A stretch of 64,000 nucleotides of DNA, from assembly GCA_016875095.1 (NCBI GenBank), contig VGSG01000010.1:1-64000 (forward strand), written 5' to 3'. Numbering within the stretch: position 1 is the stretch's first letter; each line of letters opens with the position of its first letter. The position numbers were made by a program, and so were the translations under genes. Source of the stretch: Deltaproteobacteria bacterium. Its GTDB lineage: Bacteria; Desulfobacterota; Desulfomonilia; Desulfomonilales; Desulfomonilaceae. The notes below the pieces were generated by a model. It searched no databases, had not been told where the DNA came from, and saw only the letters and a program-made list of their open reading frames with translations. This document shows, piece by piece, positions 48,009 through 50,079 of the stretch.

Positions 48009-49004
48009 TCACTTCATGCCGGAAACGATCTGGTCCATGCGCTCTCCGTCCCGAATCAAGCGCGCATCACGGAAACCGGCGCGTTGCAGATCCTCCTTGA
48101 CTTCACTCAAGGTGTACGAGTCGCCGCCCGCGGTTGCGGCCAACATGTTCACCGCGAAGATCGCGCCTTCGGGCGGCAACGTGCGACTGTCATCCATGAA
48201 GAAATCTCGCAGGAGAATGGTTCCCCCGGGTTCGAGGCATCGGTGAATCTTTTGGTATAGCCGCAGATTTTCCTCGCGGGCGTTGCTGTGAATGATCGCG
48301 GAGAGCAACGCCACGTCATGTCCCTTGGGCAGATCGTCCAGTAGGTAATCCCCCTCCACTATCTCGATACGATCCCGCACAGGGCTGCCGGCAAGAAACT
48401 CGCGGGCTATCTTGCAGACCCGCGGCAAATCAAAAAGCGTCGCGGTAAGATGCGGGCCGGCCTTGAGGAAAGCCACAGAGTAGATTCCGGATCCGCCGCC
48501 CACATCCAGCAGACGCCGATAGGCTGAAAGGTCAAGCGAATTGGCGATCCGGTCGGCAACCATGCGGCCGACCACCTGCATCGCGCCGATAAAGGACTCC
48601 AGATCTTCTTGCGGGCGATCTTCCAGCGGTCGCACGTTGGGATTCTTTCCGGTGATGACGATTTCTCTCAAGGCAGACCAGCACCGCCAAAGATGCGTGC
48701 GATGAAGAATCATGGGCAGCACGGTTTCTTCGCCTTTATGTGAGAGCAAGCGTGCGACGGTTTCATCAACCGAATATGCATCATTAGCCGCTTTTTGGAT
48801 CAGCCCCATCGACGCGAGCGCGTCGAGGAGGATTCGCAGAGCGCGAGGGTTCCAGCCCTCCGGTGCGCAGAGCTGCTCCACGGTGTATGGACCGCCACGT
48901 AACTTGGTAAAGAGGTCCAGCTCGGCCGCGGTGAGAAAAATCCGTGGCCGAGAAAAACCGGCTCCCAACTCAAGCAGCTTTTCCTTGCTCCATAGCTCTG
49001 CCAT
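48009..49004 (-). CDS. SAM-dependent O-methyltransferase family 2 (acetylserotonin OMT-like)
   Basis: 331 residues: an N-terminal winged-helix dimerisation domain (AAELDLFTKLRGGPYTVEQL ... LRILLDALASMGLIQ), then a Rossmann methyltransferase. The SAM motif I is LLDVGGGSGIYSVAF, followed by LFDLP, EGDYL and GGTILLRDFFMDD. Such enzymes methylate hydroxyl groups of small aromatic or polyketide-like compounds; in bacteria some belong to bacteriochlorophyll or menaquinone-related routes. No partner genes indicate the substrate. The gene is isolated, with about 200 nt of featureless sequence on its 3' side. Confidence 0.83.
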   Translation of the reverse strand: MAELWSKEKLLELGAGFSRPRIFLTAAELDLFTKLRGGPYTVEQLCAPEGWNPRALRILLDALASMGLIQKAANDAYSVDETVARLLSHKGEETVLPMILHRTHLWRCWSALREIVITGKNPNVRPLEDRPQEDLESFIGAMQVVGRMVADRIANSLDLSAYRRLLDVGGGSGIYSVAFLKAGPHLTATLFDLPRVCKIAREFLAGSPVRDRIEIVEGDYLLDDLPKGHDVALLSAIIHSNAREENLRLYQKIHRCLEPGGTILLRDFFMDDSRTLPPEGAIFAVNMLAATAGGDSYTLSEVKEDLQRAGFRDARLIRDGERMDQIVSGMK

Positions 49005-49173
49005 GGCTCAGCGCCTCCGAGGAATGGTCTCCGCCGCGTGTTCGATCTTATCAGCCTTCACTATCATAGCCGGACAGAATCACGCACTGAGATTTTTCAG
49101 GAACGCGTACCCGGTTGACATCCGCCTAACTGCATCATCATACTAGGGCAATCATGACTGAATCGAGGACGCA

Positions 49174-49329
49174 ATGAAATACTTAGTGGGAGTCCTGTTG
49201 GGCGCTCTGGTCGGCTTCGGCTTGTACCTGGCGAGTTCTCTGACAGGCTCAGGATGAATGCTCTGGTGCCATCCGGTGGTCGCAGTGGGACTCGGCTCCG
49301 CCATCGGACTGGCCCTGGCCTCAGTGTGA
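49174..49329 (+). CDS. Candidate selenoprotein: 51-aa DUF6132-like membrane protein with an in-frame TGA
   Basis: ATG 49174 has GAGGA just upstream. 27 codons (MKYLVGVLLGALVGFGLYLA then SSLTGSG) lead to TGA at 49255-49257. The same frame then continues as MLWCHPVVAVGLGSAIGLALASV to a second TGA at 49327. Reading the first TGA as selenocysteine gives two transmembrane helices joined by TGSG-U-MLWCHP. From memory, DUF6132 proteins have GF-12 residues-C-4 residues-NP-then GALLG; here U takes the Cys place with the same spacing and HP for NP. Just after the TGA a hairpin (49261-49287) with a 5-nt loop UCCGG resembles a bacterial SECIS. The alternative is two adjacent miniproteins or a decayed gene. 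The Crp/Fnr gene follows. Confidence 0.5.
49261..49287 (+). promoter_or_regulatory. Putative SECIS-like hairpin after the in-frame TGA
   Basis: Pairs C61-G87, C63-G85, T64-A84, G65-C83, a 2x2 mismatch, G68-T80, C69-G79, C70-G78 and A71-T77 (last two digits of 492xx) close a loop TCCGG that begins 15 nt after the TGA. Bacterial SECIS hairpins sit in this distance range and use a G in the apical loop. The stem is short and interrupted, so this is suggestive only. Confidence 0.35.
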
Positions 49330-49410
49330 GGCCGTCTCCACAAGGCTTACGCTTTCAGTGTGAGCGCTCCCGCAATTTTCTGCGAATCGCATAACGAATG
49401 GGTAGTTTCC

Positions 49411-50079
49411 ATGCCGGATATCGACATCATGTCCGCGCTTTCTCCGACGCAGCGAGCCTCCCTCGAAAAAGATGCGGTTAAGAGAACGCACCGGAAGGGA
49501 ACAGTCATAAGCGGCCCCGACGACGAAAATGATCGGGTCAACTTGGTGGTGTCGGGAAGGGTCAAGATTTACAGCCTCTCCGCCTGTGGTAACGAGATCA
49601 TTTTCCGATTCTGCGGGCCGAATTCCTTTTTCGGCATAGCCGGGCTTTTCGGAGCCGGGCAACGAAATGTTTTTTCTGAAGCGGTAGAAGACACTGAGGT
49701 GATGAGTATCAGTAGCGCCAGTGTCGAGCGAGTTGTCTCAGAAAACCCGGCGCTGGCCATGTCTCTCATTCGAGTCCTCTCCAGCCGCATCAGACAAGCT
49801 CACGAGGCGATCAGGGAATTTGTGTTTTGCGACGCTCGTTCGCGAGTTGCCCATCTGCTAGTCAAGCTTGCCGAGATCGAAGACGACGCCAACCCCGGAG
49901 TTCCTGTCCGACTCAAGGGCAAGATGACTCACCAGGACATTGCGGACATGATCGGCGCGACCCGCCAAACGGTTACGGAAATCATCAATGAATTCAAGAG
50001 ACAAGGATACGTCAAATCTGAAGCGCGGGCAATTGTTATTCTGGATTGCCAACGACTGAGAGATCTCATAACAGACTAA
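49411..50079 (+). CDS. Crp/Fnr-family transcription regulator
   Basis: 222 residues from ATG 49411 (239 from GTG 49360). An N-terminal cyclic-nucleotide-binding beta-roll (GTVISGPDDENDRVNLVVSGRVKIY ... FFGIAGLFGAGQRNVFSEAVEDTEV), a long dimer helix, and a C-terminal winged helix with recognition segment MTHQDIADMIGATRQTVTEIINEFKRQG. There is no N-terminal FNR-type Cys cluster, so it is not an obvious Fe-S oxygen sensor; the ligand could be a nucleotide, heme or none. It may control the neighbouring small membrane protein, sulfotransferase or SLC13 genes. Confidence 0.9.
   Translation: MPDIDIMSALSPTQRASLEKDAVKRTHRKGTVISGPDDENDRVNLVVSGRVKIYSLSACGNEIIFRFCGPNSFFGIAGLFGAGQRNVFSEAVEDTEVMSISSASVERVVSENPALAMSLIRVLSSRIRQAHEAIREFVFCDARSRVAHLLVKLAEIEDDANPGVPVRLKGKMTHQDIADMIGATRQTVTEIINEFKRQGYVKSEARAIVILDCQRLRDLITD

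Follow-up and report, generated by a model that had tools for sequence, protein, structure and literature searches.

Our comparative data indicate that positions 49174-49329 (forward strand) of the window, by which we mean the whole 64-kb stretch of DNA that was analysed, very likely encode a 51-residue selenoprotein related to the DUF6132 family, in which an internal TGA is translated, and translated as selenocysteine (Sec); no experiment and no detection of selenium stands behind this reading. The frame starts with ATG and runs through 27 codons, a TGA, 23 codons and a final TGA, and its product is MKYLVGVLLGALVGFGLYLASSLTGSG-U-MLWCHPVVAVGLGSAIGLALASV. Among the 157 comparable frames of the window (ATG, at least 20 codons, TGA, at least 20 codons, stop) strong hydrophobicity of both halves (GRAVY > 1) is unique to this one. 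An initial annotation, made from the sequence alone, had described this frame as a possible selenoprotein gene with a good ribosome site and two membrane-helix-like halves. The frame and its start held, a GAGGA-like stretch is present upstream, the helix-like character held in the sense of strong hydrophobicity of both halves, and the selenoprotein reading is supported by the comparisons and by the Sec machinery of the genome, again without experiment. The coordinates are collected in Table 1.

Table 1. Features at the locus of the putative selenoprotein gene and the grounds on which each was assigned
Feature	Position	Strand	Basis or remark
O-methyltransferase gene, divergent	48009..49004	-	Pfam Methyltransf_2; conserved neighbour within the same genome family
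GAGGA, ribosome-site-like	49165..49169	+	sequence
51-residue selenoprotein gene (very likely), DUF6132-related	49174..49329	+	stop codon included; reading frame, relatives with the same TGA, coding pattern on both sides of the TGA
TGA, very likely decoded as selenocysteine 28	49255..49257	+	one TGA in all confident full-length relatives; genomic Sec machinery
Stretch expected to hold a SECIS; structure not identified	49258..49310	+	folds do not beat shuffled sequence; the subgroup shows no covarying stem
TGC codon of Cys32, the only partner Cys, at Sec+4	49267..49269	+	Cys count in 45 sequences
Crp/Fnr-type regulator gene, downstream	49360..50079	+	Pfam HTH_Crp_2 and cNMP_binding

The first question is whether the internal TGA is translated at all. 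A protein search with the 51-residue query against 395 genomes of the phylum returned the window's own gene and 22 relatives, each with one in-frame TGA (one of these relatives, L039, is damaged in its 5' part). A profile built from 22 of these 23 sequences recovered the relatives with E-values down to 3e-25, together with extra members; two matches fell close to the threshold, and membership was verified for L078 but not for L077. Neither search imposed a TGA requirement, and every confident full-length profile match has a single in-frame TGA, always at the same place, the sole TGA-free match in the phylum being a 24-residue fragment. In the same genomes the Pfam DUF6132 model, which is independent of our alignment, had 12 hits exceeding its cut-off, and all 12 contain one internal TGA. 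It is these profile and Pfam searches that provide the unbiased evidence; the presence of the TGA in all 45 inspected sequences is there by construction, since the selection pattern required it. The divergence at the three codon positions is 0.47/0.34/0.67 before the TGA, 0.41/0.24/0.59 after it and 0.72/0.74/0.73 past the final stop, which shows that the protein-coding substitution pattern persists downstream of the TGA and disappears beyond the final stop. Because the TGA-blind searches, the Pfam matches and the codon-position divergence agree, translation of the internal TGA is as good as shown, by comparison and not by experiment.

One would argue that the TGA is nevertheless an ordinary stop, which either separates two unrelated short frames or marks a decayed gene, and a standard gene caller indeed sees the 27-codon frame only, consistent with the expectation of the initial annotation that software would miss or split the gene. 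The comparisons contradict this explanation and all but exclude it: protein conservation and the codon pattern run through the TGA in about a dozen genome families, and neither TAA nor TAG occurs at the site in the confident full-length relatives. Close relatives with ordinary stops or frameshifts at this site would have refuted the initial annotation; what the close relatives do is keep the TGA, and the same in-frame TGA is retained by relatives in about a dozen bacterial families.

As to the distribution of the gene, the profile search found it in 10 of the 18 genomes of the window's own family. In two genomes a pair of different Sec-DUF6132 genes is present (L073 and L105 in one, L074 and L106 in the other). 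One genus of the window's own family, represented by 7 genomes, lacks the gene in all 7, and selA is present in both genomes of this genus that were tested, so the gene is dispensable there.

The position of the cysteine next to Sec divides the family into two architectures. Exactly one Cys lies within 8 residues of Sec in all 45 inspected sequences: at +4 in 31 of them, as in the window protein, at -5 in 11 and at -6 in 3. The model of DUF6132 (PF19628, curated cut-off 23.2 bits) does not match the window protein at E <= 1 and matches 14 of 22 window-type members weakly (best E 1.3e-4), whereas the -5/-6 sister type scores above the cut-off and has Sec where the model favours Cys. When the alignments of the two types were compared, they matched end to end with Sec on Sec (probability 98.9, E 3.2e-17, 53 columns), and the window protein shares the length and the two-helix pattern of DUF6132. 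It is therefore related to DUF6132 through full-length homology to sequences above the cut-off, but is not a member by score. In one sister sequence, replacing Cys at the Sec site by S, W, R or A costs at least 4.7 bits in the DUF6132 model, and in a second sister sequence replacing it by A costs at least 4.7 bits; replacing the Cys at -5 by Ala costs 4.7 bits. The losses at both cysteines indicate that the model expects C-x4-C. Compared with this motif the -5 sister type reads C-x4-U, whereas the window type has Sec at the second place, has lost the first Cys (-5) and carries one at +4 instead.

The link to DUF6132 claimed by the initial annotation thus held, weakly in the window type, above the cut-off in the sister type and through the full-length alignment, and its claim that Sec replaces a conserved Cys is supported only indirectly, by the model scores of the two sister sequences. 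Its claim that a Cys at Sec+4 fits the DUF6132 spacing failed, as the sister type carries its Cys 5-6 residues before Sec. Homologues with Cys at the Sec site, for which the same annotation had proposed a search, were not found for the window type in genome contigs, viral contigs, plasmids or phages by a narrow pattern search, and this counts against the selenoprotein reading. In the control, Bacteroides ihuae matches the DUF6132 model. Matches to Romo1 were weak (E 0.05-0.8), and some members weakly match glycine-zipper models.

Within the window's own genome family one locus, L085, places its partner Cys at -5, with Ser occupying +4. It adjoins the same divergent methyltransferase gene (49% identical), and therefore the partner Cys has switched sides at a shared genomic place. 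L085, around position 1582 on the reverse strand, is an orthologue intermediate between the two architectures.

The second question is which residue the TGA specifies. The window's genome contains selA (1.8e-178), full-length selB (4.7e-117), a tRNA-Sec with the anticodon tca (UCA) and selD, so that the four genes selA, selB, selC and selD, whose presence the initial annotation had proposed as a check, are all there, and the absence of selB or selC that would have refuted it is not observed. The family-model match of selD (contig 7, 103502-104416, minus strand) spans one in-frame TGA, and SelD of this genome is likely a selenoprotein itself. The genomes carrying the gene are all in the selA-positive list; this co-occurrence is consistent with our reading but weak as evidence, because 355 of the 395 genomes carry selA. 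Matches to selB were found on contigs 36 and 73, and a second selB-like stretch lies at a contig end (model positions 1-273, 184 bits, below cut-off); it may represent an additional selB, part of a split one, or a different elongation factor.

The main gap in the selenoprotein case is the SECIS element, for which no support emerged in the window gene or its subgroup, and this counts against the case. The initial annotation had pointed to a SECIS-like hairpin starting 4 nt after the TGA. The fold exists, but it failed as evidence, since it is no better than that of shuffled sequence (z = -0.36; 67 of 200 shuffles equally good). The window subgroup yielded nothing convincing when single sequences and alignments were folded, in a SECIS-style scan with codon shuffles or in an exhaustive search for stems, and Rfam has no match at the locus. 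In the +4 type, one genome family gives a hint of a stem located further downstream. The -5/-6 type carries a hairpin, CCCU[GGUC]AGGG or CCAU[GGUC]AUGG, about 19 nt after the TGA; four of its pairs vary on both sides, and its covariation score was reached by none of 500 shuffles. The GGUC loop is similar to the loop of E. coli fdhF.

The lack of a demonstrated SECIS in the window gene itself is the argument for another explanation, namely that the TGA, through read-through or reassignment, specifies a residue other than selenocysteine, for example Trp. We consider this very unlikely. In 11 of 32 such loci the gene itself ends with TGA, so that TGA works as an ordinary stop in these genomes and is not simply reassigned; the covarying SECIS-type hairpin is present in the sister genes; the Pfam model scores Cys above the tested substitutes in the two sister sequences; and selD of the same genome has an in-frame TGA of its own.

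The structure model obtained from a 22-row alignment contains helices at residues 2-24, 28-31 and 34-50 (mean pLDDT 80.5) and predicts that Sec28 and Cys32 lie in the turn between two long helices. Location in the membrane is inferred from hydrophobicity, and the sidedness is unknown. There is no conserved operon around the gene, and its neighbours are conserved only within genome families. Orthologues of the divergent methyltransferase adjoin it in seven genomes of the window's family (L020, L021, L079, L080, L083, L084 and L085). The downstream Crp/Fnr gene was rejected as a partner, as it is not a conserved neighbour elsewhere; a functional link remains merely possible. In several genome families, redox genes turn up repeatedly close to the selenoprotein gene. 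Thioredoxin is encoded 19-30 bp upstream of it in six loci and also beside the damaged L039; downstream lie a thioredoxin-reductase-like gene in L072 (at 48 bp), superoxide dismutase in L034, L037 and L038 (at 27 bp) and rubrerythrin in L030 (at 37 bp); and L105 and L106 have a gene for a CGGC-domain protein upstream. This recurrence comes without enrichment statistics, and several of the loci belong to one family.

These observations lead us to a mechanism whose steps differ in their support. Translation of the internal TGA is shown by comparison. Its decoding as selenocysteine, with the full Sec machinery in the genome and at a site where the Pfam model favours Cys, is strongly supported. 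The product is predicted, from the model and the sequence, to fold as two glycine-rich membrane helices in a hairpin, whose short turn, at the membrane surface, holds Sec28 and Cys32. The last step is inferred, and we would hold it no more firmly than its negation: Sec and its single nearby Cys would form a reversible selenenylsulfide, and the protein would be a membrane-anchored thiol/selenol redox element reduced by thioredoxin-type partners, with peroxide or disulfide reduction, or electron relay, as the candidate chemistry. The initial annotation had taken the Cys four residues after Sec as a sign of a redox or metal site; between the two we lean, with the same reserve, to the inferred redox role and keep metal binding as a rival. 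A bolder reading, which is possible and no more than that, sees a minimal membrane selenoenzyme: glycine-packed two-helix hairpins would assemble in the membrane, and electrons would pass between thioredoxin in the cytoplasm and targets that lie within or beyond the membrane via one Sec and one Cys, the latter having changed its side of Sec in evolution.

The rival that concerns metals would leave the protein a selenoprotein. The Sec/Cys pair could bind or carry some cargo, be it a metal ion, selenide or a sulfur compound, and the hairpins could oligomerise into a small transporter or carrier. The glycine-rich helices and the weak glycine-zipper matches of some members speak for this possibility, as does the occurrence of Sec in listed transport families. 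Listed membrane selenoproteins include YeeE/YedE (PF04143), a putative mercuric transport protein (PF02411) and the SO_0444 Cu/Zn efflux transporter (NF033936) (PMC13188914), transport-type bacterial proteins that resemble the window protein in having Sec. However, they are other families with the motifs GUxSG, C/SxxU and UxC, and window-type members do not match their three models at E <= 1. Against the transporter stand the redox genes that recur as near neighbours and the lack of a transporter gene consistently adjacent across genome families, an MFS gene being found in several loci of one family.

A further alternative holds that both products matter, the 27-residue single-helix peptide under selenium scarcity and the 51-residue selenoprotein under ample supply, in a selenium-dependent switch. 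The first half is a complete hydrophobic helix with its own start, and low selenium is known to cause termination at Sec codons. However, there is no sign of a separate function of the short form, and the invariant residues are Sec28 and Cys32. Thus the switch is unlikely, and we retain the full-length selenoprotein as the preferred reading.

The selenoprotein status of this DUF6132-related family is absent from the sources we searched. DUF6132 has no entry in a table from 2026 that covers 119 prokaryotic selenoprotein families or subfamilies (PMC13188914), NCBIfam (June 2026) holds no fitting model for either the +4 or the -5/-6 type, and no paper in the literature searched mentions DUF6132 and selenoprotein together; unpublished work and individual GenBank annotations were outside the scope. 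The authors of deep-Sep state that their method may miss selenoproteins without Cys homologues (PMC12013277), and possibly the window type was overlooked for this reason. Like the window protein, the thiol redox selenoproteins with UxxC or CxxU (thioredoxin, glutaredoxin and similar) combine one Sec with one close Cys. However, these are mostly of the thioredoxin fold (PMC13188914), whereas the window family is predicted to be an all-helix membrane hairpin, and its spacing is U-x3-C, C-x4-U or C-x5-U.

These findings would add to the known selenoproteins, most of which have the thioredoxin fold, a widespread, unlisted and very small family consisting of membrane helices only. Every DUF6132 match above the cut-off in the sampled phylum is a Sec form, and therefore ordinary gene callers would truncate the whole family there. 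Since the gene has a cultured carrier, Desulfomonile tiedjei DSM 6799 (identified via a plasmid), the selenoprotein claim is testable. The rule that a single Sec is paired with a single Cys, before or after it, offers a direct handle on the function of DUF6132.
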